Shown: piece after piece, positions 588 through 13,981 of the stretch
Position numbering within the stretch: the first letter of the stretch is position 1
Layout: every line of letters begins with the position of its first letter
Origin: Candidatus Omnitrophota bacterium
GTDB lineage: Bacteria; Omnitrophota; Gorgyraeia; JAGLLT01
Assembly: GCA_023140385.1 (NCBI GenBank)
Contig: JAGLLT010000025.1
Coordinates: forward strand, 1-34,145
Reading direction: 5' to 3'
Length of the DNA: 34,145 nt
Program-made: the position numbers and the translations under genes
Notes under the pieces: model-generated
What the model was told of the DNA's origin: nothing
The model's input: the letters and a program-made list of their open reading frames with translations, nothing else
Database searches by the model: none

Positions 588-1703
588 ATGACGATGTATA
601 AGATAGCGGTTATACCTGGGGACGGAACGGGGCCGGAGGTGGTCAGGGAAGGGCTGAAGGTTCTTGAGGCCGTTAGCGGGATGAAGGGTTTCAAATACGA
701 ACTTGTCAATTATGATTTCGGCGGTGAAAGATATAAAAAAACAGGCGAGGTTTTGCCTGAATCCGCCATTGATGAACTTAGAAAAGTAGATACTATTTTC
801 CTGGGCGCCGTCGGCCATCCCGACGTCAAACCCGGTATTTTAGAGAAAGGTTTACTGTTAAAGTTAAGGTTTTCATTAGATCAGTACATTAACTTAAGGC
901 CGGTTAAATTATATCCGGGCGTCTTAACACCGCTAAAGGATAAGGGGCCTGAGGATATAGACTTTGTGGTAGTACGCGAAAACACGGAAGGCCTTTATGT
1001 GGGTGAGGGTGAGTTTACCGATAAAGATACCGATAAAGAAGTAGCTATTCAGATTTCAAGAAATTCTTATAAGGGTGTTGAGCGTTGTTTAAAGTATGCT
1101 TATGAGTATACTTTAAAGAGAAATAAAGAAAAGAAACTTACTCTTTGCGGCAAGACAAATGTTTTAACATACGCCTGGGACTTATGGGAGAGAACATTTA
1201 ATAAGCTCTCCGCTAATTATCCCGACGTCAAGACAGATTATGCTCATGTGGATGCTACCTGTATGTGGATGGTTAAAAACCCCGAGTGGTTTGATGTCAT
1301 CGTAACGGACAATATGTTCGGTGATATTATTACAGACCTGGGGGCAATGATACAGGGCGGTATGGGAATTGCCGCGGGCGGCAATATCAACCCTGAGGGT
1401 GTTTCGATGTTTGAGCCCATAGGCGGCTCAGCCCCGAAATATACAGGCAAAGACGTCATTAACCCACTGGCGGCTATTTGCGCCTGCGGTATGATGCTGG
1501 AAAATTTAGGCGAAACAGAAGCCGCCGCCATGATTGAAAAGTCGGTTATGAAAGCCACTACCATGATGGACAGCATGTCAGCCGGCCGAATGGGCTATTC
1601 AACTCAGGAAGTTGGAGACTTAGTAGTTAAACATCTGGATAAATCCAAAATACTAAACAATATCAAATGTCAGAAACACAAAACTCAAAAGTATACGATT
1701 TAG
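588..1703 (+). CDS. leuB: 3-isopropylmalate dehydrogenase (isocitrate/isopropylmalate dehydrogenase family)
   Basis: IAVIPGDGTGPEVV, VVRENTEGLYVG, VTDNMFGDIITDLGAMIQGGMG, FEPIGGSAPKYTGKDVINPLAAI motifs; follows leuD. C-terminal tail after ...VVKHLD is encoded by repeat sequence. Confidence 0.93.
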   Translation: MTMYKIAVIPGDGTGPEVVREGLKVLEAVSGMKGFKYELVNYDFGGERYKKTGEVLPESAIDELRKVDTIFLGAVGHPDVKPGILEKGLLLKLRFSLDQYINLRPVKLYPGVLTPLKDKGPEDIDFVVVRENTEGLYVGEGEFTDKDTDKEVAIQISRNSYKGVERCLKYAYEYTLKRNKEKKLTLCGKTNVLTYAWDLWERTFNKLSANYPDVKTDYAHVDATCMWMVKNPEWFDVIVTDNMFGDIITDLGAMIQGGMGIAAGGNINPEGVSMFEPIGGSAPKYTGKDVINPLAAICACGMMLENLGETEAAAMIEKSVMKATTMMDSMSAGRMGYSTQEVGDLVVKHLDKSKILNNIKCQKHKTQKYTI

Positions 1704-2149
1704 AAGATAGAACATTAAAATTCGCGAGACAAATTAGGGAATTTGTTAAAAAGTTACCTAAAAATATAGCTAACATTGAAGACATAAAACAATTAGTGAG
1801 ATCTTCGGGTTCTGTAGGAGCAAATTATATTGAAGCCAATGAATCTCTGAGTAAAAAAGATTTTGCCATGAGAATAAAAATATCCCGCAAGGAGGTCAAG
1901 GAAAGTCGATATTGGCTGAGGCTTGTGGAGACCATGTCTAATTCTTTAGAAGAAGTAAGAAATGAATTAATTAGAGAAGCAACAGAGCTTATGAAGATAT
2001 TTGGTTCAATAGTAGAAAAATCAAAGTAAGTTTTGATGCTATAATTTAGAATTTTGCTTTTTTTTGAATTTTGCATTTGCTTTTGTTTAGAGCCTTTGAA
2101 TTTAGTATTTGAGATTTGTTTAGGGTTTAGATATTAGGATTTAGGATTT
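1648..2149. mobile_element. Four-helix-bundle (IVP-like) ORF flanked by complementary AT-rich arms; candidate non-autonomous or unclassified element
   Basis: Left arm 1648-1670 identical to 433-455; right arm 2119-2149 matches 524-554; AAATACTAAA (1648-1657) is exactly complementary to TTTAGTATTT (2101-2110). Confidence 0.5.
1667..2029 (+). CDS. Four helix bundle protein (23S rRNA intervening-sequence protein / S23 family)
   Basis: YDLEDRTLKFARQIREFVKKLPKN...QLVRSSGSVGANYIEANESLSKKDFAMRIKISRKEVKESRYWLRLV is the characteristic IVP/four-helix-bundle pattern. Confidence 0.9.
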   Translation: MSETQNSKVYDLEDRTLKFARQIREFVKKLPKNIANIEDIKQLVRSSGSVGANYIEANESLSKKDFAMRIKISRKEVKESRYWLRLVETMSNSLEEVRNELIREATELMKIFGSIVEKSK

Positions 2150-2205: not shown

Positions 2206-3216
2206 GTGAAGCAGTATAATATAGCCGTTGTTGGTGTTGGCGCGGTTGGTAAAGAGATACTTAAAACCTTAAAGACGAGAAACTTTCCGGTCGCGTCTAT
2301 TAAAGTGCTTGCCAGAAGCGCGCGTGAAATTGACGTAGACGGGCAGTCTTATATGGTAGAGGAAATAAGCCCTGAGTCTTTTAAGGGAATTGATATAGCC
2401 TTGTTTGCCGGTACCGAGGGTGAAAAGGGAGCTTCTGTTACTTACGCGCCTTCAGCTGTAAAAGAAGGAGCGGTGGTTATTGATAACGGGGCTGACTTTC
2501 GTTTGAAGGATGATGTTCCTTTAGTTGTGCCTGAAGTAAACGCGGCTGATGTAAAAAACAATAAAGGCATCATCTCCAATCCCAACTGTTCCACCATCCA
2601 GATGGTTTTAGCCCTTCATCCAATTTATAAGTTATCAAGAATAAAGAGAGTCATAGCTAATACTTATCAGGCGGCTTCAGGGGCAGGCCAGAGTGCTTCT
2701 GATGAGCTGTATAATCAAACCGCTGAATTCTTAGACGGTAAAGATTTAACCATTAAGGCCTTTAGTAAAAGAATTGCCTTTAATGTGATTCCCCAGATAG
2801 GAAGTTTTGGCGAACTGGACTATACTACTGAAGAGTGGAAGATGGTATATGAAACCCATAAGATTCTTCACGATGATAATATCAAAATATCAGCCACCAC
2901 TGTCAGAGTGCCGGTTAAAACCGGGCACAGTGAGTCTATATATATAGAGACTGAAAAACCGCTTTTAGTCGATGAAGTGAGGACAGCCTTAAACGCGCAA
3001 AGCGGTATCAAAGTGGTTGATGATATAAACAGCCTCCAATATCCTATGCCTTATGAGTCAGAAGGCACTGATGACGTCTTTGTAGGCCGCATTCGTAAGG
3101 ATCCTTATGTACCTGAAGGCCTATGGCTTTGGGTAACGGCTGATAACTTAAGAAAAGGCGCCGCCCTAAATGCCGTTCAGATTGCGGAAGCATTAATTAA
3201 TGATGGTCAATTTTAA
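2206..3216 (+). CDS. asd: Aspartate-semialdehyde dehydrogenase
   Basis: N-terminal Rossmann VGVGAVGKEILKTL, SNPNCSTIQMVLAL active-site Cys, RVPVKTGHSESIYIE, FVGRIRKD. Confidence 0.94.
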   Translation: MKQYNIAVVGVGAVGKEILKTLKTRNFPVASIKVLARSAREIDVDGQSYMVEEISPESFKGIDIALFAGTEGEKGASVTYAPSAVKEGAVVIDNGADFRLKDDVPLVVPEVNAADVKNNKGIISNPNCSTIQMVLALHPIYKLSRIKRVIANTYQAASGAGQSASDELYNQTAEFLDGKDLTIKAFSKRIAFNVIPQIGSFGELDYTTEEWKMVYETHKILHDDNIKISATTVRVPVKTGHSESIYIETEKPLLVDEVRTALNAQSGIKVVDDINSLQYPMPYESEGTDDVFVGRIRKDPYVPEGLWLWVTADNLRKGAALNAVQIAEALINDGQF

Positions 3217-3934
3217 GCTTACTATAGAATATGACGGTACAAATTACAGCGGCTGGCAAATACAACCCCACCAAAGAACCATCCAGCAGGAAATAGAAAA
3301 ACAACTAAGTAAGATACTCAATCATAAAATAAAGATTACAGGCTCCGGCAGAACAGATGCCGGAGTTCATGCTTTAGCCCAAGTTGCAAACTTCAAAACC
3401 ACATCAACAATAAAACCCGCCAACCTAAAAAAAGCCCTAAATTCACTCATAAATAAAGACATCAAGATAAAGAGCATTACGAAGGTGTCAGATGATTTCC
3501 ATGCCAGATTTTCCGCCAAAAGAAAAACCTACAGATACCAGATAGCCCTAAAAGAACCCAGCGTCTTTGAAAGGTTCTATTACAACTACATCCCATACAA
3601 ACTAAACCTATCCCTAATGAAAAAAGAAGCCAAAGATTTATTAGGCACCCACGACTTCAAATCATTCCAAGGCTCAGCCCGCCTAGCCAAAAACACCAAA
3701 AGAACCATAACCAAAGCCTCACTCATAAAAAAAGAAGATAAGCTCTACTTTACAATTGAAGGAAGCGGTTTTCTATATAATATGGTAAGAAACATAGCCG
3801 GCACCCTAATTGAAATAGGAAGGGGCAAATTCCCTCAAGGCAGTATAAAAAAAATAATAAAAACCAAAGACAGAAGAAAAGCAGGACCTACAGCTAAAGC
3901 TTGTGGGTTGTTTTTGGTTAGGGTGGGGTATTGA
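3200..3934 (+). CDS. truA: tRNA pseudouridine(38-40) synthase TruA
   Basis: KLTIEYDGTNYSGWQIQPHQRTIQQEIE, GSGRTDAGVHALAQVANF, FLYNMVRNIAGTLIEIGRGK; overlaps asd 3' end. Confidence 0.95.
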   Translation: MMVNFKLTIEYDGTNYSGWQIQPHQRTIQQEIEKQLSKILNHKIKITGSGRTDAGVHALAQVANFKTTSTIKPANLKKALNSLINKDIKIKSITKVSDDFHARFSAKRKTYRYQIALKEPSVFERFYYNYIPYKLNLSLMKKEAKDLLGTHDFKSFQGSARLAKNTKRTITKASLIKKEDKLYFTIEGSGFLYNMVRNIAGTLIEIGRGKFPQGSIKKIIKTKDRRKAGPTAKACGLFLVRVGY

Positions 3935-4058
3935 TTTGGGTTGAATTGTATGTGCATGGGGTGTAAGATGGGTGTGTATGGTATTGGATTGCTTTAAAGG
4001 GAGAGTTTGAGTGTTAATTGTTAGGTCATAGAGAAGGTCGTGAGAAAGGAGCAATGAC

Positions 4059-5561
4059 ATGCCTATCAAGATTGCCATAAGTCCAATCTCGGATACTCAA
4101 AAGAATTACTTGCTGATCGCTCAGTCTCGGCCCACCTCATCGCGGGCTATTGAGGCGTTGCTTAACGTTTGTTGTGACGAGGATATAACATCTGGACGGG
4201 AAGCCGTTCACCCAGAATGGGCTAAGATTTTTACAGTGAACATTCGGCAACTCAAAAAACAGCTTAAAGCTTCGCAGTTAGTGCAACTTGAGCAGATTTT
4301 CGGTCAAGCAGCTTTCTATGATCCTGCTGTGCTCAAGATTAATCTCTCTGCGTCACGTCTCGTCTTTCTTTTGGGTGCGGGTGCATCGAAACCACGACCT
4401 TCAGGTATTCCAACAGTTTCAGAACTATTAGTAGACCTGCTTCAGCGCGCACGCAAACTGAACCGCCAAGATCTCGATCGGCTTGCTGATTTCTGCGAAG
4501 AAGCAAACATTACCAACATTGAAGATCTTCTCACGGCAGCACAGTTATCGGAATTCTGTAGCCGGAACCCAACAGTTCTTCGCCTCATTGAGTTTCTCAT
4601 CTATCGCAAAGGGCGTGATGACTCCGAGACCCAGCCTTATCCCACCATGTCACATTCTCGAGGATTCCGTTTGCCAATCGGGGATCTGTCGGCGGTAGCG
4701 TTTCTACAAGACACCCTTCAGGTACTCTTTGGTCTCTTGTCCAGCCGAATGCTCCCGGCAAAGCCCAATGCAGCACATAAGGCAATCGCCAAATATGCGC
4801 ATGCCAACAAATCAACATCAATTGTGACTACCAACTATGACTGCTGTATGGATCTTGCGCTGGGGACCGAAGGAAGGGATTTCTCTTACCTGGTCGATTT
4901 CATGAATAAACAATCCTCTGAAAATCGAGCACAAGCAAAGAGCTCATTGATCAAGCTCCACGGTAGTTTGAATTGGTTTTACTGCGATACATGCCAGCAG
5001 GTCCATCAGATCGATATCAAGAAGACGATTAAGGAGTATCTTACAGACCAAGGATGCTATTCCGTTATTGCTGTATGCAGAGAGTGTGGCGGGCAACGTC
5101 GTGGATTAATTGTTCCACCTTTAGCCATGAAGTTTGATATGGCGCCGCCCCTGACACCGTTGATTGGGAGGACGCAGGAATCGTTCAATGCAGCAGACAT
5201 CATTATAGCTGTAGGTTTCTCCTTCGCCGACGCTGACTTATACATCTCGCGTATGCTTACTAAAGCACTACAATCCTCCAAGGAAACGCAACTGGTCGTG
5301 TTTGACCCGGATTACACTGTTGTGGAAAAACTGAGGCGACAGATGTCTTTACACGTCTCCGGCTTTAACCCAGGCAGGATTCTTAGGGTTGGAGGAGATT
5401 GTTCAGAAATGCTTCCGGCATTTCTGGCGAGACGGCTAAAGTTCATAAAGACTAAGCCGATGGTTGAATTCAAGGACAAAGCGATCAGGGTGCCAACGAA
5501 AGAGAGACAAATCCAGCACCGAACAAAAGCATCCAGGCGACGTCCTAAAGGTCGCAGCTGA
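4059..5561 (+). CDS. SIR2-like domain protein with internal Cys4 zinc module
   Basis: LVFLLGAGASKP, SIVTTNYDCCMDLAL, LIKLHGSLNW, CDTC...CREC, IIIAVGFSFADADLYI are SIR2-like signatures; composition and codon usage differ from neighbours. Confidence 0.85.
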   Translation: MPIKIAISPISDTQKNYLLIAQSRPTSSRAIEALLNVCCDEDITSGREAVHPEWAKIFTVNIRQLKKQLKASQLVQLEQIFGQAAFYDPAVLKINLSASRLVFLLGAGASKPRPSGIPTVSELLVDLLQRARKLNRQDLDRLADFCEEANITNIEDLLTAAQLSEFCSRNPTVLRLIEFLIYRKGRDDSETQPYPTMSHSRGFRLPIGDLSAVAFLQDTLQVLFGLLSSRMLPAKPNAAHKAIAKYAHANKSTSIVTTNYDCCMDLALGTEGRDFSYLVDFMNKQSSENRAQAKSSLIKLHGSLNWFYCDTCQQVHQIDIKKTIKEYLTDQGCYSVIAVCRECGGQRRGLIVPPLAMKFDMAPPLTPLIGRTQESFNAADIIIAVGFSFADADLYISRMLTKALQSSKETQLVVFDPDYTVVEKLRRQMSLHVSGFNPGRILRVGGDCSEMLPAFLARRLKFIKTKPMVEFKDKAIRVPTKERQIQHRTKASRRRPKGRS

Positions 5562-5608
5562 TACTTACCGTTAGAAGGAGAAAAATATTCGAAATATTTT
5601 TTTACATT

Positions 5609-5791
5609 TTGTTTTATCCGTTATTGCTTGTTATTTGGAAAATTCCCAAAAGACTATTTTTAAAAAAAAGCTGGATTACGATGTTTGCCTTCGGGGGAGT
5701 TATATTAAATTTTATAAAATCATTCAAATTTAACTTTATATCCATAGCATTTTTAGCCATAAGTTCTATATTGATTTGTCGTCAACAATGA
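5609..5791 (+). CDS. Hypothetical small membrane protein
   Basis: 60 aa ORF with hydrophobic segments; no recognised family. Confidence 0.35.
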   Translation: MFYPLLLVIWKIPKRLFLKKSWITMFAFGGVILNFIKSFKFNFISIAFLAISSILICRQQ

Positions 5792-5859
5792 CGGCAATAT
5801 CAGAGCAAAGCGGTTAATTTACTGCCTTTTGCGGCTGTTGTTAGAAGGAGAAAATAACT

Positions 5860-6630
5860 ATGACATTAATTTTAACAGAACTTAGCGGAAGAGGAATTAC
5901 AATGGCTGCTGATTCAGCTATTACGCTTAGAAATAGACAAACAGGCCTGTTTTATATTTCTCATGAAAGAGCAAAAAAATTACAAGAAATTCCATATCTT
6001 AATGCTGGAATTTCATGTTGGGGGATGGGCCAAATCGATACTAAATCAACCGATAAGTGGTTATCTGACTTTATTCAGTCCAATTCAGGCATTGAAACCT
6101 TATCTGAATTTGCAGAGAAATTAGTAAGTAAGCTTAATGATCTCATTCCAAATAATGACAATGGAGAACCACGGTTAGGCTTTCACCTATCTGGTTTTGA
6201 AAAAAATAATGACCAAGAACCAATACCATCTTTCTATCATATACATGATGGGCCCAGTGAGGTACTGAGAGACAGAGAAATCGATATCAATTCTAATCAA
6301 TTTAATGCGAATCATGATATGCCACCATTAATATTCAAAAGAGACATTTTATCTCAAAGGAAAGCTTATATAACACGAAATGGAGATTATACATTATATG
6401 CTCAGTTATTTAATGGAATTGAAACCTTCTTAAGAAGCATAGCTAATGATGGAATCATAATTCCGCATTCTATTGATTTAGAAGATCGGGCGGAGTACCT
6501 AGTATTTCAAATACGAACGATGGCTGAACTATACCGACTGAGTAATCTTGTTCCTGGTATTGGTGGGGCTATTGACTATTTAACTATTGATTCTAATGGG
6601 ATCCATAGTTCAGGGACGAGATATCAATAG
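5860..6630 (+). CDS. Proteasome beta-subunit-like Ntn-hydrolase
   Basis: MTLILTELSGRGITMAADSAIT...RAKKLQEIPYLNAGISCWGMGQID: Thr directly after Met, Asp at +17 in the AADS motif, KK-L-x-I segment as in proteasome-fold peptidases; SD TTAGAAGGAGAAAA. Confidence 0.6.
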   Translation: MTLILTELSGRGITMAADSAITLRNRQTGLFYISHERAKKLQEIPYLNAGISCWGMGQIDTKSTDKWLSDFIQSNSGIETLSEFAEKLVSKLNDLIPNNDNGEPRLGFHLSGFEKNNDQEPIPSFYHIHDGPSEVLRDREIDINSNQFNANHDMPPLIFKRDILSQRKAYITRNGDYTLYAQLFNGIETFLRSIANDGIIIPHSIDLEDRAEYLVFQIRTMAELYRLSNLVPGIGGAIDYLTIDSNGIHSSGTRYQ

Positions 6631-6859
6631 AACTTATAATAATTTGCTTCACGCTGACTATTGCTTGCATTCTTTCAGATGTGGTTTGTGCTAGATAAGC
6701 TTATATGTTAGAGTGATAATAAAAATGAAGCAATATAATACTGTTAAAATGACAAATGCAAGAGTTCTATATTGTAAACTAAGAAATTTTATTTCGCAAT
6801 AATGTTATTTTAAATAATACTTAATGTTCATTATGCATTAAAAGGGGATAGGTGGATTG

Positions 6860-7867
6860 GTGCAATTGAAAGCACAACAACAAAGAAAAAAATTTTTAGA
6901 AATTTACAACTTGGAATTTCCTCCATATATTAAGAAGCTAACCATTGGCGATTATAAATTTAAAAGAATAGGGAACTACAAAGAAGCTTCTGATAATATG
7001 ATGTGGCTCTTAACTTCATATGGAAGCGAATTTGATAGACAAACGAAAACAGGTTCACATCAAGTTACTGCAATTGTTGAAGTTCCGCAAACAGAAAAAA
7101 AATGCGAGTTGCCTTGGGGTGATAAAAAGTCAACACAGCTATACGATGTTTTATTTTTATTAACAATTTTTACTGGAAGGAATGTTTTTGAAAAGAATTG
7201 GGATGATGAGAATGATATTGCTATCATCCAAGATTACAGAATGCATCAGTATGGTGGCCAGTTAATTACGTCGTTGAATGGTGAATGGGTTTTTATGAAT
7301 ATAGATACTGGTGAATTTAGATCAGAAGAAGAAATAAAAGGCATGGACAACGTGGAGCAAATGGATTGGAATAAAGTCGATATTGGATTTGAGAAAAATT
7401 TAAATCAAGTTTTAAATAAAATCTCTAGTAAAAGTTGGCAAGACGAGTACGAAGGCGGCTATTTTTTATTATTGTTTAAATCGGCAATGCAAAGACAGAT
7501 TATTGGAACATCTTTTATTTTATGCTGGACAGTTTGGGAGCATATTTTCGCCATTAAAAATCGTAATTGGTTAGATGATAAAACTATTGAACAGATGAGT
7601 AGTGATAAAAAAATCAGTTATATATTAAACAAATATTTTTTAAAGGATATTGATGATGGTGCTAGAAAAAATATACAGAGAATTAATAAAACGAGAAACA
7701 GGTTAGTTCATTTTGGTAAGAAAACAGATAATGTTGATTTTGCAGAAATGAACATGTTTATTCGATTAACTGAGCAATTAATAGCTACTATTTTAGGTTT
7801 GCGGCCGTCAAATCTTTTTAATTCATTTGATGAGTTAGATAATTTTTTAAAAAAAAGTAAACATTAG
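6860..7867 (+). CDS. HEPN-like domain protein (putative RNase, C-terminal Rx4H motif); GTG or TTG start
   Basis: ORF open from TTG 6857/GTG 6860; RINKTRNRLVHFGKK motif near the C-terminus (R-N-x3-H, 7694-7711) typical of HEPN/Apea-like domains. Confidence 0.55.
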   Translation: MQLKAQQQRKKFLEIYNLEFPPYIKKLTIGDYKFKRIGNYKEASDNMMWLLTSYGSEFDRQTKTGSHQVTAIVEVPQTEKKCELPWGDKKSTQLYDVLFLLTIFTGRNVFEKNWDDENDIAIIQDYRMHQYGGQLITSLNGEWVFMNIDTGEFRSEEEIKGMDNVEQMDWNKVDIGFEKNLNQVLNKISSKSWQDEYEGGYFLLLFKSAMQRQIIGTSFILCWTVWEHIFAIKNRNWLDDKTIEQMSSDKKISYILNKYFLKDIDDGARKNIQRINKTRNRLVHFGKKTDNVDFAEMNMFIRLTEQLIATILGLRPSNLFNSFDELDNFLKKSKH

Positions 7868-7894
7868 GAGGGTAAATGTTTAGTAAGCAATACG

Positions 7895-7915
7895 AAAAGG
7901 GGACAGATACCTTTT
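7895..7915. repeat. REP-like GGGGACAG palindromic motif
   Basis: AAAAGGGGACAGATACCTTTT, imperfect palindrome; similar motifs in other spacers of the window. Confidence 0.4.
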
Positions 7916-7945
7916 AATAATATCTTAGGTGTAATAAAGTATATA

Positions 7946-7988
7946 ATATTAAAATTCCTTAAAAAATGAAGTTCGCATATTAACTGTT
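7946..7988 (+). repeat. Spacer repeat family A, copy 1
   Basis: ATATTAAAATTCCTTAAAAAATGAAGTTCGCATATTAACTGTT, 36/43 identical to 9999-10041. Confidence 0.65.
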
Positions 7989-8021
7989 AGATGAAAGAGT
8001 ATAAATAAAAGGAGGTAAATC

Positions 8022-8363
8022 ATGGAGAACACATCGGGTCAAGGAGAATCGGCAATTGTTCCTGCTGAAATTAAAGGATGGAATTGGGGAGCTTTCTTGT
8101 TAAGCTGGATATGGGCTATAGGGAACAACACATGGATTGGCTTGTTAGCATTAATTCCCTATGCAGGATTTGTAATGGCAATAATACTTGGAATTAAAGG
8201 AAAAGAGTGGGCTTGGAAGAATAAGAAATGGGAAAGTGTGGATCATTTCCAGAGAGTGCAAAAAAAATGGGCATATTGGGGAGTCGCTATCTGTTTATTC
8301 TTTTTTGTAGTAGGTCTTCTCGCATCAATAATTGTACCTATATTAGTAAACATGAGACAATAA
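8022..8363 (+). CDS. Small integral membrane protein (DUF2628-like W-rich AEIKGWNWGAFLLSWIW type)
   Basis: GWNWGAFLLSWIWAIGNNTWIGLLALIPYAGFVMAIILGIKGKEWAWKNKKW plus C-terminal TM; SD AAAGGAGG. Confidence 0.65.
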   Translation: MENTSGQGESAIVPAEIKGWNWGAFLLSWIWAIGNNTWIGLLALIPYAGFVMAIILGIKGKEWAWKNKKWESVDHFQRVQKKWAYWGVAICLFFFVVGLLASIIVPILVNMRQ

Positions 8364-8488
8364 AACCATTTAACACCTATATAAAACAGGGGACACTGGA
8401 CTTACCCTGACAAGACGGACAATTAATTAACCTTATTTCTTTACTCATACTTTACAGGGCTAACATATAACCCAGACTTAATCCCCCC

Positions 8489-8547
8489 CCATGCAAACTT
8501 CCTATAATTGAACTTGAAAGAAGTGCGGTTGCGATGTATTATATATA
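8489..8547 (+). repeat. Spacer repeat family B, copy 1
   Basis: 59 bp, 55/59 identical to 10856-10914. Confidence 0.75.
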
Positions 8548-8566
8548 GTAATTGTTAGGAGAAAAA

Positions 8567-9040
8567 ATGAATAAAAGAATTATACTTGCTTTAATTCTAA
8601 GTAGCTCAATAATTGGGTGCGCGACACGCTTAGTTCAACAGCAATCTAGCAATACATCAATAAATGAAGAGTTTTCTCCGACTGATCCTTTTAAATGGGA
8701 AAACTTAACGCCAATAGAATTCCTAAACTATTTAAAAGAACGCCAAGGAACGCTACTTACAATTTGGGAACCGGCCCCAAGAGACTGGATAAAAAAAGAA
8801 CATATTCCAAAGCTAATGGAGCTCATAGAATCAAACACACCTTGCGCCCATACGGTCGCCGCAATATCATCTTGTCTGCCGCCACCAAAATCCACCATTG
8901 GAGATGAAGCAATATTTCTTATAGATGGTTTTATTGAAGGTAGATATCCGCCGGGTCTTTATTCAAAAGGAAAATCAAAACAAAAAATTGAAAGCATAAA
9001 AGAATGGTATGAAGAATGGAAAAGAAATAAAAAACTATAA
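8567..9040 (+). CDS. Putative lipoprotein of unknown function
   Basis: MNKRIILALILSSSIIGCATRL signal peptide with lipobox IIGC; SD TTAGGAGAAAAA. The ORF track extends upstream to a TTG. Confidence 0.65.
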   Translation: MNKRIILALILSSSIIGCATRLVQQQSSNTSINEEFSPTDPFKWENLTPIEFLNYLKERQGTLLTIWEPAPRDWIKKEHIPKLMELIESNTPCAHTVAAISSCLPPPKSTIGDEAIFLIDGFIEGRYPPGLYSKGKSKQKIESIKEWYEEWKRNKKL

Positions 9041-9102
9041 CAATTTCAAGAAAAAGGGGGCACCTTTTCCATTTAAATCCCCTTAAAGAGGTGAGAAGTA
9101 AA

Positions 9103-9357
9103 ATGAAATTAAATTTTTCAAGAAATGACTTTAAAGATGCATTTATAGGGATGGTAATACTTAGTATTATACTCAGTGTACTCTATTGTGCTATACTTCT
9201 ATTGCCTAATCAGTTCGGAGTGCATGACGAATGGAAAGTCACTCTATTGGCAACCACAAAGGAGCATTGGCCTATTTTTCTTGGTGGTATAATGGTTATA
9301 AGTCTTTTCTATAGTATATTGGAGTTAGTAAAAAAAATAAAAAAAAGACATAAATGA
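9103..9357 (+). CDS. Hypothetical membrane protein (two predicted TM segments)
   Basis: GMVILSIILSVLYCAILLL and IFLGGIMVISLFYSILELV hydrophobic helices. Confidence 0.5.
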   Translation: MKLNFSRNDFKDAFIGMVILSIILSVLYCAILLLPNQFGVHDEWKVTLLATTKEHWPIFLGGIMVISLFYSILELVKKIKKRHK

Positions 9358-9463
9358 AAACAAAGTTAAAAGTTGACCATAAGCCGTTTAAAAAACTTGC
9401 AAAGAATTCCCCCTTTGCCCCTTTGTTTCTGTAAAGCTAATTTAGGATTATATTAAAACAGTG

Positions 9464-9889
9464 ATGAAAGAGGAAATTTATTCAAAAGATTTAGGGATCA
9501 ATCTTAAAACGGGCGGGGAGGAAGAAATCTTTAAATGGTTTTTAGCTTGTTTACTCTTCGGAAAACCCATTCAGCAGAAGGTTGCTAAAAGGGCCTACTT
9601 TGAATTTGAAAAAGAAGGAATTTTGAGCCCGGAGAAAATCTTAAAAGCCGGCTATGATAAATTAGTTGAGATATTAGACAAAGGTCATTATGTGCGTTAT
9701 GATTTCTCTACTGCCAACAAATTATTAGATATTTGTAAAAAATTGAAAAAAGATTATGGAAGTCTATCCAATCTTCTTAAAAAGGCTAAAGACAAAAAAG
9801 AGGTAGAAAAAACACTCCAAGAATTTAAGGGGATAGGGCCGGTGACCATCAAAATATTTTTAAGAGACCTTTGCAATAAAACTAACTAG
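9464..9889 (+). CDS. HhH-motif DNA glycosylase/endonuclease III-like protein (short)
   Basis: EEIFKWFLACLLFGKPIQQKVAKRAYFEF and LQEFKGIGPVTIKIFLRDL helix-hairpin-helix. Confidence 0.6.
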   Translation: MKEEIYSKDLGINLKTGGEEEIFKWFLACLLFGKPIQQKVAKRAYFEFEKEGILSPEKILKAGYDKLVEILDKGHYVRYDFSTANKLLDICKKLKKDYGSLSNLLKKAKDKKEVEKTLQEFKGIGPVTIKIFLRDLCNKTN

Positions 9890-9998
9890 AAAAAGGGAAA
9901 AAGAAAAAAGGGATAGGCGCCTTTTGCCGCCTGGATATTACATATAATTAAGCATCCAGCTTGAAAGTTTAATATATTTTATGTATAATATGTGTGTG

Positions 9999-10041
9999 AT
10001 ATTAAAGTACCTTAAAAAAAGAAGTTGGGGTATTAATTGTT
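9999..10041 (+). repeat. Spacer repeat family A, copy 2
   Basis: ATATTAAAGTACCTTAAAAAAAGAAGTTGGGGTATTAATTGTT vs 7946-7988. Confidence 0.65.
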
Positions 10042-10072
10042 GTATTATAAAAATCTTTAAAGAGAAAGATAA

Positions 10073-10786
10073 ATGAACTCACCTAATTTAAGACGCGAAG
10101 TTAGATATGGAATGCCGGCAGCAGACCAAGTAATGTTTAATAGATATTATGTGCTAGGTTATTCATATTATTTTCGTCAGGCAAAGTGGGCCTTAGAAAT
10201 TGTAGATCCTGATAATCTTGGCTTAGATCGTTCAGATAACTTTCGTCCAGATTATCGAATTCCAGATATGTTTCGCGCCGACCTTGTTGATTATGCTGGA
10301 TCCGGCTACGATCGCGGGCATCTTGTTGCAAGTGCTAATCAGAGAGAAACAGAATTACAAAATAGTGAAACATTCCTTTTGTCCAATATGTCTCCTCAGA
10401 GACCTCGATTCAATAGAAACACTTGGAGAGAATTGGAAGCTGAAGTCAGAAATTTAGACGCAAAGTCTAGAATATTAGAAACGTATGTTATCTGTGGCCC
10501 TATTTTTTATTTCGATCAGCCAGTCGAAGGTATAGGTGCTGACGACCCGAATGAAGTAACCATACCAATACCACACGCATATTTTAAATCTATTTTGACT
10601 GAGAATAATAAAGGGGCTTTGCATATGTGGTCATTTGTATTACCAAACGAAGAATCTGATCAATCACTTGACACGTTTTTAGTTCCAACAACACTTGTTG
10701 AAAAATTAGCCGGCATCAAGTTGTGGGAACAGCTGGTAGGTAAGAAAATTGATAAAGAAAAATCAAGGGTTCGTAGAATGTGGTAA
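10073..10786 (+). CDS. DNA/RNA non-specific endonuclease (NucA/NUC1, beta-beta-alpha metal family)
   Basis: YDRGHLVASANQRETELQNSETFLLSNMSPQRPRFNRNTWRELE: DRGH catalytic motif and NMSPQ..FNR.TW; YVICGPIF. Confidence 0.88.
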   Translation: MNSPNLRREVRYGMPAADQVMFNRYYVLGYSYYFRQAKWALEIVDPDNLGLDRSDNFRPDYRIPDMFRADLVDYAGSGYDRGHLVASANQRETELQNSETFLLSNMSPQRPRFNRNTWRELEAEVRNLDAKSRILETYVICGPIFYFDQPVEGIGADDPNEVTIPIPHAYFKSILTENNKGALHMWSFVLPNEESDQSLDTFLVPTTLVEKLAGIKLWEQLVGKKIDKEKSRVRRMW

Positions 10787-10855
10787 AATTTCCAAGGATA
10801 TAACATTTATATGTCCCCTAAATCGGGGGAAGTCCACTCTGTCTCTCCATGCTAA

Positions 10856-10914
10856 CCATGCAAACTTCATATAATTGAGCTTGAAAGAAGCGCGTTTGCG
10901 ATGTATTATATATA
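10856..10914 (+). repeat. Spacer repeat family B, copy 2
   Basis: 59 bp, 55/59 identical to 8489-8547. Confidence 0.75.
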
Positions 10915-10954
10915 TGCGCTATTAAATACTGGACAAAAATAAAAGGAGAATCAC

Positions 10955-11386
10955 TTGAAATATTTGATTATTTTATTGATAATTATCGCGATCGCGTTTA
11001 TAGCATTTACATACAGCCAAAGAAATCTAAACGCGCCGGATAACGCGATAGTAATAATAAAACCATATTGGCATAATGAAACATGGGTCTTTGATGATAA
11101 AAGAGTGAATTTATATCAAGAACCATTTGTAGCGGGAATACCTGAAATGATTAATCATATGACAAAAGATATTCCCAACGCTAAAAATGGATTTAGATTA
11201 TTGTTTTCAGCTAATTCATTTCCAGCTTATCAAATGAAATTAATCTGGATACGAGAAGAGAGTGGTGGAAATTGGTATTATTTAGAGGATTTACAAACGG
11301 AAGGCTGGTTATGTCCAGCTTTATTTAAGTATTACAAAAAGACTCCAAAAGAAATATACGCTAAAGCAGAGGCAATAAATGAATGA
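10955..11386 (+). CDS. Membrane-anchored protein of unknown function (DUF6717-like), TTG start
   Basis: N-terminal TM helix then NAIVIIKPYWHNETWVFDDKRVNLYQEPFVAGIPEMINHMTKDIPNAKNGFRLLFSA; SD AAAAGGAGAATCAC before TTG. Confidence 0.65.
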   Translation: MKYLIILLIIIAIAFIAFTYSQRNLNAPDNAIVIIKPYWHNETWVFDDKRVNLYQEPFVAGIPEMINHMTKDIPNAKNGFRLLFSANSFPAYQMKLIWIREESGGNWYYLEDLQTEGWLCPALFKYYKKTPKEIYAKAEAINE

Positions 11387-11410
11387 TTATCCACCTAATT
11401 AGTTAATGCA

Positions 11411-11430
11411 CCCGACCCTGAAGTGTCGGG
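11411..11430. terminator. Candidate hairpin (possible terminator)
   Basis: CCCGAC-CCTGAAGT-GTCGGG; no clear T-tract follows. Confidence 0.3.
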
Positions 11431-11475
11431 GCGGGGGAATTTAAGTGTTCAAAGGAGAGAAAAGGGAGGTTGAAT

Positions 11476-11868
11476 ATGCGCTTGGAAGTATTTTCGTTAT
11501 GCGACGCGGCAACGGCCGACACAGGAAAGCTAAATATTTTAGGGGCTTTTGATATAATCTGGAGTTCAAAAATGCCGGCGATCCATCCACAATGCACTAT
11601 CGCTCTTAGAATTAGATTTGACGCGATTGAAAGGGGTGAACATAAAATTTCTGTTAATTTTGTAGATATAGACGGTAAGCACGTCCTTCCACCGGCTAAC
11701 GGCATAATTAAAGTCAATTTTCCCGATGAACAAAGCTCCGGTTCATCTCATCTAATCCTCAACATTCAAAGATTAAAGCTGGAAAAATATGGAGAATACT
11801 CTATAGACTTAGCTATAGATGGAAGAAGTGAAGCATCGCTGCCACTTTTTGTCAAAAAAAGACAATAA
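11476..11868 (+). CDS. DUF6941-like protein of unknown function
   Basis: MRLEVFSLCDAATADTGKLNILGAFDIIWSSKMPAIHPQCTIALRIRF; SD GGGAGG. Confidence 0.6.
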   Translation: MRLEVFSLCDAATADTGKLNILGAFDIIWSSKMPAIHPQCTIALRIRFDAIERGEHKISVNFVDIDGKHVLPPANGIIKVNFPDEQSSGSSHLILNIQRLKLEKYGEYSIDLAIDGRSEASLPLFVKKRQ

Positions 11869-11907
11869 TGTAGGGCAGGTCCACTGAGCTATCCCGGAGG
11901 ACATAAT

Positions 11908-12270
11908 ATGAAGAAAACGTGGGTTCCTAAAATTATAGCCATTCTAATAACAACTGTTATAGTTACAACTACTATACATTTAAGTCATTTGACAGGAGGA
12001 AGTCTTGTTCGAAAGAAATTATTGAACGATGAAAAACTTGTGAAAGTTTTAGATTATATTAAGGAATCTGGAGTTAAAATACAAGATATTTCCTTAGCCG
12101 GCAAAGAGCCGCCAACGTATCCAAGTTTTTTTGTTTTTATATTTTTGCTTGTTTCCCTTTTTTTGGGCATTCATTTTGTTAGCATGAAGATTGTAAAAAA
12201 ACTTTTTAATATCTGCCGACAATCGCGCGAATGCCTATTGAAATTGAAATCGGAGGAACGCAATACTTGA
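11908..12270 (+). CDS. Hypothetical membrane protein
   Basis: Two hydrophobic helices; SD CCCGGAGG. Confidence 0.5.
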   Translation: MKKTWVPKIIAILITTVIVTTTIHLSHLTGGSLVRKKLLNDEKLVKVLDYIKESGVKIQDISLAGKEPPTYPSFFVFIFLLVSLFLGIHFVSMKIVKKLFNICRQSRECLLKLKSEERNT

Positions 12271-12388
12271 ATTTAGTAATGGATAGTGTAAAAGATGTTC
12301 CTCTATTATGCTTAGAGATGTTTTTGTATCTTTTTAGCGGATGATAGTGTATGATGATTAAAGTAAATTATTAAAAAAGAGAGATATT

Positions 12389-13981
12389 ATGGAAAAGAAA
12401 AAGAGATTTAATGAACTTGGGCTTTCAGCAAAGGTGTTGGAGGCAATTAATAAAAAGGGTTTTGAAGAGCCAACCGCGATTCAGGCTCTGACTATCCCTG
12501 TTATGTTAAGAGATGATACTAATATCATTGCTCAGGCTCAAACAGGTACAGGCAAAACAGCCGCGTTTGGGTTACCTCTGATAGAAATGATTAACGCGGA
12601 TTCCAAAACAGTTCAGGCGCTAATCCTGGCTCCTACACGAGAGTTAGCCATTCAGGTATCGGAAGAAATCAATTCACTCAAAGGGAAGAAGGATATCAAA
12701 ATAGTTCCTATATATGGCGGCCAGTCTATTGATCAGCAGCTGCGCAGACTGAAAAAAGGTGTGCATATTGTTGTTGGAACTCCGGGCAGGATAATTGATC
12801 ATCTTAACAGAAGAACGCTAAAGCTTGGAGAAATTGAGCATTTGATACTTGATGAGGCGGATGAAATGCTTAATATGGGATTCATCGAAGATATGGAAAA
12901 AATAATGAAGTATACAAATCCCAAGAAAAGAACACTCTTGTTTTCCGCGACAATGCCCAAAAGGATAAAGGACCTTGCCCACAAATACATGGAAGGTTAT
13001 GAGTTTCTCGCGGTTAAGGCAGAGCAGTTGACAACTAATCTCACCGAGCAAATATACTTCGAGGTAAAAGTTTCTGACAGGTTTGAGGCGCTATGCAGGA
13101 TAATAGATATTGAAGATGAGTTTTACGGATTAGTTTTCTGCAGAACAAAGAGTAATGTTGATTCTGTTTCAGGCCATTTAATAGATAGAGGATATGACGC
13201 GGGAGCTATTCATGGAGATATTTCACAGGCGCAAAGAGAAAGAACTCTGGATAAATTCAGGAAACAAAGAGTTCGTATTCTTATAGCAACGGATGTTGCC
13301 GCTCGCGGAATTGATGTTATTAATCTCACCCACGTTATCAACTATTCACTGCCTCAAGACCCGGAGTCGTATGTTCATCGAATAGGCCGTACAGGAAGGG
13401 CCGGGAGTGAGGGTACGGCTATTACGTTTATTACCCCTAGTGAGTATAATAAGCTGATGCATATACAGCGGTTTGCCAAGACTGATATTAAGAAATCAAA
13501 AGTACCGCAGGTAAAAGATATCATCGAATCCAAAAAGAAAAAGATACATGATGATCTGACAGCTGTTCTTAATGATAAGATTGATCCTAATTATTATAAC
13601 TGGGCTAAGAAATTACTTGAGAATAATAACCCCCCGGAAATATTAGCCGCGATATTAAACCATTGCTTCGAAGAAGAGCTTAATCCTAATACTTATGGTG
13701 TGATAAAAGATGTCAGTGGAAAAGGAAAGCAGCTTGATCAACAGGGCAAAGCAAGGCTTTTTGTAGCGCTTGGCAAGAAAGACAAGATGAATGCCAAAAA
13801 ACTTGTTGAGCTTATTATGAGCAAGGTTTCAGTTAAGTCCAAACATATCAGTGATGTACAGGTAATGGAAAAATTCTCTTTTATAACAGTTCCTTTTGAA
13901 AAAGCGGAAAAAATCGTTGTCAGCTTTAGGGAGAAGGGTAAAAAACCGCTGATCAGTCATGCTAAGAAAACCAAAAAGTAA
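12389..13981 (+). CDS. deaD: DEAD-box ATP-dependent RNA helicase with C-terminal DbpA-type RNA-binding domain
   Basis: AQTGTGKTAAF, PTRELAIQV, LDEADEMLNMGF, SATMP, HRIGRTGRAG; C-terminal LFVALGKKDKMNAKKLVELI. Confidence 0.92.
   Translation: MEKKKRFNELGLSAKVLEAINKKGFEEPTAIQALTIPVMLRDDTNIIAQAQTGTGKTAAFGLPLIEMINADSKTVQALILAPTRELAIQVSEEINSLKGKKDIKIVPIYGGQSIDQQLRRLKKGVHIVVGTPGRIIDHLNRRTLKLGEIEHLILDEADEMLNMGFIEDMEKIMKYTNPKKRTLLFSATMPKRIKDLAHKYMEGYEFLAVKAEQLTTNLTEQIYFEVKVSDRFEALCRIIDIEDEFYGLVFCRTKSNVDSVSGHLIDRGYDAGAIHGDISQAQRERTLDKFRKQRVRILIATDVAARGIDVINLTHVINYSLPQDPESYVHRIGRTGRAGSEGTAITFITPSEYNKLMHIQRFAKTDIKKSKVPQVKDIIESKKKKIHDDLTAVLNDKIDPNYYNWAKKLLENNNPPEILAAILNHCFEEELNPNTYGVIKDVSGKGKQLDQQGKARLFVALGKKDKMNAKKLVELIMSKVSVKSKHISDVQVMEKFSFITVPFEKAEKIVVSFREKGKKPLISHAKKTKK

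Follow-up and report, generated by a model that had tools for sequence, protein, structure and literature searches.

The window analysed here (34,145 nucleotides of the genome of an Omnitrophota bacterium) contains, between truA (end at 3934) and a DEAD-box helicase gene (start at 12389), an island (3935-12388) in which all genes of the ORF list are co-oriented on the plus strand, and the question raised by this locus is what kind of genetic element assembled these genes. A sequence-only reading had pointed to a GTTAG motif in each of six successive spacers of the island, interpreted these motifs as R' boxes of attC sites, and accordingly proposed an integron-derived array of the CALIN type, i.e., a cluster of attC sites that lacks an integron-integrase (PMC9024848).

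Table 1. Features of the truA-helicase island and its flanks (R1, attC covariance model; R2, attI model; the E-values of both models are rough)
Feature	Position	Strand	Evidence and remarks
truA, left flank	3200-3934	+	order asd-truA, island, helicase gene conserved in the sister genus (G002)
Pc-attI module 1, putative array head	3941-4026	+	TTGAAT 3941-3946, TAAGAT 3964-3969, crossover G|TTAGGT 4020; R2 3995-4025, 9.3 bits, E=0.087, weak alone; aligns with the family element; attI at the same position after truA in G002
SIR2-domain gene, probable cassette 1	4059-5561	+	Pfam SIR2_2 9.5e-10; PADLOC SIR2 families
Probable degenerate attC	5518-5576	+	R'' ACCGAAC, R' GTTAGAA at 5570; R1 9.9 bits, E=3.9, not significant alone
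Undecided spacer ending in GTTAGAA at 5840	5780-5846	+	no R1 match; fold z=-1.41
Accessory gene without assigned function	5860-6630	+	ORF; neither a Pfam nor an NCBIfam match; no homologue among 146 relatives
Possible degenerate attC ending at GTTAGAG 6707	6634-6713	+	best R1 match in the window, 15.4 bits, E=0.17; folds poorly
HEPN (Apea-like) gene	6857-7867	+	PF18739 7.5e-5, slightly below the gathering score
attI module 2	7921-7992	+	crossover 7986; promoter half less clear; R2 7952-7991, 24.5 bits, E=1.1e-6; 80-90% identical to G002 spacers and to C4
Small accessory gene	8022-8363	+	ORF; no homologue in 146 relatives
Pc-attI module 3, subtype 2	8511-8560	+	TTGAAA 8514-8519, TATTAT 8537-8542, GTTAGGA 8554; apparent internal deletion; R2 8542-8559, 8.0 bits, E=0.23, weak alone; 93% identical to 10856-10914
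Accessory gene	8567-9040	+	ORF; no Pfam match
Pc-attI module 4	9958-10045	+	TTGAAA 9961-9966, TATAAT 9984-9989, crossover decayed to GTTGTAT at 10039; R2 10005-10041, 14.3 bits, E=0.0022; G002 counterpart precedes the same (endonuclease) gene
DNA/RNA non-specific endonuclease gene	10073-10786	+	PF01223 1.9e-43; sole island gene common to G002
Pc fragment, subtype 2, without attI core	10878-10929	+	TTGAAA-17-TATTAT; 80-83% identical to heads in L088 and L091
DUF6717 gene	10955-11386	+	PF20475 5.7e-12
DEAD-box helicase gene, right flank	12389-13981	+	87% identical homologue borders the G002 island

In G002, a genome of the same family, the corresponding island spans about 10.5 kb between asd-truA and the helicase gene; the endonuclease gene (86% DNA identity) and three spacer elements match those of the window, and the other cargo differs. 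A search for related loci with TruA as the query returned only a Clostridium homologue, and an Rfam scan of the whole window produced no match. The position between the leuB-like gene and asd is a second spot of gene turnover, being occupied by a four-helix-bundle-like gene in the window (1667-2029) and by a different small gene in G002.

The six GTTAG motifs are present on the plus strand exactly at 4020, 5570, 5840, 6707, 7986 and 8554, and the identity of 5570-5584 with 5840-5854 was likewise confirmed. The motif is not enriched window-wide (44 occurrences vs 57 expected); among the 13 island spacers, it occurs in all of the first six. Under dinucleotide shuffling of each spacer, the probability of at least six of the 13 spacers containing the motif is 0.003 and that of all of the first six containing it is 3e-6; given that the six spacers were chosen after the fact, the former value is the fairer one. 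The location of each motif 13-39 bp before the next start, as originally described, does not hold: 5570 requires a 60 aa ORF with a TTG start and 6707 an ORF of about 25 codons, the next sizeable ORF past 6707 starting at 6857.

The verdicts on attC given here rest on a covariance model (R1) derived from 29 aligned sites out of the 37 attC sites found beside the intI genes of relatives. When the window was scanned with this model, no significant attC was detected. The same model identified real attC sites elsewhere in the window's genome, namely at C6 (three), C38 (four to five), C14, C48 and C54, as well as sites of 45.3, 19.5 and 17.7 bits in the truA-helicase island of G002, one of which is a textbook attC (R'' GCTCAAC ... 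R' GTTAGAT), the other two being weaker. The upstream arms previously described at 8460/8553 and 7922/7978 turned out not to be attC arms, as neither is picked out by R1 on the plus strand; the bottom strand of 8459-8560 folds like shuffled sequences (z=-0.05, vs z=-7.3 for a true attC of the same genome, at C6). None of the bottom-strand folds of the attC candidates in the window was better than those of shuffles (z=-0.77 for 5518-5576), and when pairing of the R''/R' arms and of the L-boxes was scanned for ad hoc, the sites of the window were indistinct from background. On the basis of the covariance model and of folding, the reading of the six spacers as canonical attC sites was rejected.

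Both of the best full-length plus-strand matches to R1 end exactly at nominated GTTAGs (6707 and 5570), and, for the SIR2 gene, the start GTTAGGT predicts an R'' box ACCTAAC, where ACCGAAC is found at 5518. Judging from these sequence features, 5518-5576 and 6634-6713 are probably decayed attC sites, degenerate at best. The coincidence of these two matches with GTTAG and the enrichment of the motif in the island spacers are what could be expected of a canonical CALIN, with all six GTTAGs as R' boxes and the genes as ordinary promoterless cassettes; nevertheless, given that the window contains neither a significant attC nor attC-like folds and that 4020, 7986 and 8554 match an attI model (see below), we consider this explanation very improbable. 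A CALIN comprises at least two attC sites without an integron-integrase nearby: tblastn detected no IntI remnant in the window, and the island does consist of co-oriented single-gene units with cargo differing between relatives, but the best R1 matches stay at the E-values listed in Table 1.

A feature overlooked in the sequence-only reading is that several of the GTTAG spacers resemble one another over the approximately 50-90 bp that end with GTTAG. A repeat search inside the island revealed blocks 50-59 bp long in common between spacers (93% and 80% identical), and the aligned copies constitute a single element of about 90 bp that consists of TTGAAA, 17 nt, TATAAT, a leader and the 3'-end TATTAATTGTTAGAT, and is located shortly before the next gene. 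In seven relatives, the stretch that separates the first cassette from the divergent intI contains a sequence resembling TTCGTCTATTAATTGTTAGAC, which is therefore attI by position. The attI model (R2) was built solely from seven attI sites adjoining integron-integrase genes of other families, with no sequence of the family studied here, and its four best matches in the window are all located in island spacers on the plus strand (modules 2, 4, 1 and 3, in this order). By virtue of this homology to sites located between intI and the first cassette, with the end at G|TTRRRY, the repeated spacer element is best described as a predicted Pc promoter plus an attI site rather than an attC, which is the central result of this work. 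Hence the GTTAGs at 4020 and 7986 are the predicted crossovers of attI-like sites, and that at 8554 is probably an attI-like crossover as well, instead of the R' boxes of attC that they had been taken for.

Across 34 copies of the element, conservation drops from about 1.5 bits per column at GTTAG to 0.33 in the next five columns; some of these copies were picked by the core, which inflates the former figure and leaves the downstream drop unaffected. By itself, the pattern TATTAATTGTTAG shows no enrichment relative to a reversed control, and only the longer model is informative. One R2 match in another contig, at C8:7007 (E=0.0026), is without a normal crossover and was set aside as a probable false positive. 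The possibility that the repeated leader encodes a leader peptide was rejected as well, given that a MILKFLKK-like frame, as inspected by eye, is not retained in every copy.

A sigma-70-type promoter is predicted in most of the attI-like modules, with hexamers of the TTGAAA-17-TATAAT type at modules 1, 3 and 4 (for the region overall, promoter-like sites are not in excess, with 34 observed vs 29.5 expected), so that the description of the genes as promoterless cassettes would not apply to several of them, which are located directly behind a Pc-like promoter. Given the conservation of the -35 and -10 hexamers, and that one copy of the element precedes a metal-permease gene on another contig without attC nearby, it could be argued that the element is a mere common promoter with a leader, typical of this lineage and with no tie to integrons, and that the island is an ordinary turnover hot spot. 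We consider this quite improbable because the element was found with a model made exclusively from intI-adjoining sites in other families, other copies head attC arrays, and the similarity stops at the crossover.

No match to the integron-integrase model TIGR02249 above the curated cut-off was found in the window's genome (92.7% complete, so that a gap is possible) or in G002; the tyrosine recombinases matched by the model in the former are XerD, XerC and one other. This cut-off was exceeded in 9 of the 117 relatives searched, including the congener G001, where an incomplete intI lies at the end of a contig (293 bits). The genomes are fragmented, and absence of intI may reflect assembly gaps; at a head, a stretch of 109 bases is identical between the ends of two G002 contigs (C11 and C17), as typically happens where a repeat interrupts an assembly. 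At C6:25072 of the window's genome, the same attI core is followed first by a cassette with the start GTTATAG, for which the R'' box CTATAAC is a full match (7 of 7), and then by another two attC sites; the alignment of this locus to G001 begins 54 bp beyond the stop of the G001 intI, and therefore intI has been lost there in the window's genome.

When 15 genomes were searched with R2 at E<=0.02, seven matches were found in G000, ten in G002, five in G083, two each in G014, G037 and G026, and one each in G001, G008 and G052; there were none in G003, G004, G007, G011, G013 and G084. Five of these R2-negative genomes belong to intI-less relatives; given that G084 possesses intI, R2 misses some attI sites. 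Most of the solo attI copies have attC within about 0.2-2 kb downstream, and they mostly head one to four cassettes. At a second locus of G083 (L128, C5, 5389-5655), 206 bp of the intI-attI head are present at 99.5% identity, and of intI itself only 51 bp from the 3' end remain beside it, which suggests that solo heads derive from whole heads that lost intI.

Several observations on the integrons of relatives are worth recording in their own right. Several relatives of the class (L043-L049) have an inverted repeat resembling ACGAAnTTCGT at two places, one in the promoter region of intI and the other within attI, and this repeat could be a regulator's operator. At L042 (G084:C44), the attC array and intI are on the same strand, unlike in the other relatives; in this genome R2 detected no attI, and the locus is possibly an inverted-integrase integron. 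At L095 (G001:C194, 3549-5509), a solo attI heads a lone gene for a 605 aa OLD/AAA-type ATPase with a 47.9-bit attC, a possible defence cassette.

Many island genes are followed at the 3' side by repeats of the GGGGACAG...CCTTTT type, both in the window (7898-7916, 8385-8396 and 9054-9070) and in G002 (many L029 spacers); these may be of a type connected with REP-associated transposases. Their distribution, along with the turnover of cargo between genera, would fit homologous recombination or transposition at such repeats as the main force behind the island, with the integron pieces as bystanders. However, the homology to attI, the abrupt loss of similarity at the crossover and the attC sites in G002 would all be left unexplained, which makes this scenario extremely unlikely. 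The repeats may nonetheless add to the turnover, which is compatible with an integron origin.

Taken together, the homology to attI, the absence of intI from the window and the assembled genome, the different cargo at the same place in G002 and the loss of intI at the in situ locus argue that the truA-helicase island is, with high probability, a largely decayed multi-attI integron cassette array without an integrase gene. Independent models and the comparison of relatives thus support the part of the original proposal that concerns an integrase-less, integron-derived array with G|TTAG boundaries; CALIN status, with no significant attC, is not supported. We infer the following order of events and route of the extra heads. 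An integron head would have been established after truA, with module 1 as the head of the array, behind which IntI would have placed genes by inserting cassettes at G|TTAG; the clearest captured unit would be the SIR2 gene, which ends in the degenerate attC at 5518-5576. Subsequently, intI would have been lost and the attC sites would have decayed. Further heads, descended from duplicated integron heads that lost intI, would have come to lie inside the array (modules 2 to 4 and the Pc fragment at 10878), each internal module directly before one accessory gene that is probably still driven by the promoter part, i.e., the promoters would be active. Given that Pc is well matched where the crossover has decayed (10039 and its G002 counterpart, before the endonuclease gene), it fits that promoters have been kept for expression. 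An alternative in which the integron is distributed, so that numerous Pc-attI platforms along the chromosome are served in trans by a single integrase, an internal Pc-attI is the 3' recombination site of the preceding unit, and gene-plus-promoter units move as cassettes with attI instead of attC at their boundaries, is tentative and appears rather unlikely.

Like CALINs, some of which are found at other loci of the same genome, the decayed array in the window lacks an integrase and consists of co-oriented single genes of integron origin; unlike them, it contains no recognisable attC and has several attI copies instead. Compared to complete integrons, attI is present (modules 2 and 4 with the best E-values, Table 1) but no intI adjoins it. 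Another published parallel is an integrase-less array headed by attI, owing to which the replicon has more than one attI; attI without an adjoining integrase is common to both, whereas that case involves one extra attI with true attC, and here several attI sites are found in one array and more across the chromosome. Archaeal integrons, in the part of the account considered here (PMC9668308), have an attI that is semi-conserved across phyla with a canonical insertion point, a likeness to the window, and many CALINs, proposed to be usable in trans; unlike in the window, the attI described there adjoins intI, with no dispersed copies in that part of the account. The integrons of the same class (in G014, G037, G052, G062, G072, G083, G084 and G092) share with the window the attI core TATTAATTGTTAG, the upstream Pc and the attC type, and differ from it in having intI and clear attC beside attI. 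In the literature searched, 'integron' occurs alongside 'Omnitrophota' or 'Omnitrophica' in only one paper, which mentions it once.

Given that attI sites other than those of class 1 are poorly described and are not detected by the standard tool, IntegronFinder 2 (PMC9024848), integrase-less arrays have been judged by attC alone. With the attI model, the heads of such arrays can be recognised and prove to be dispersed, with up to ten matches per genome, in a little-known bacterial class with intI in 9 of the 117 genomes searched, which suggests how captured genes keep a promoter once attC and intI are gone.
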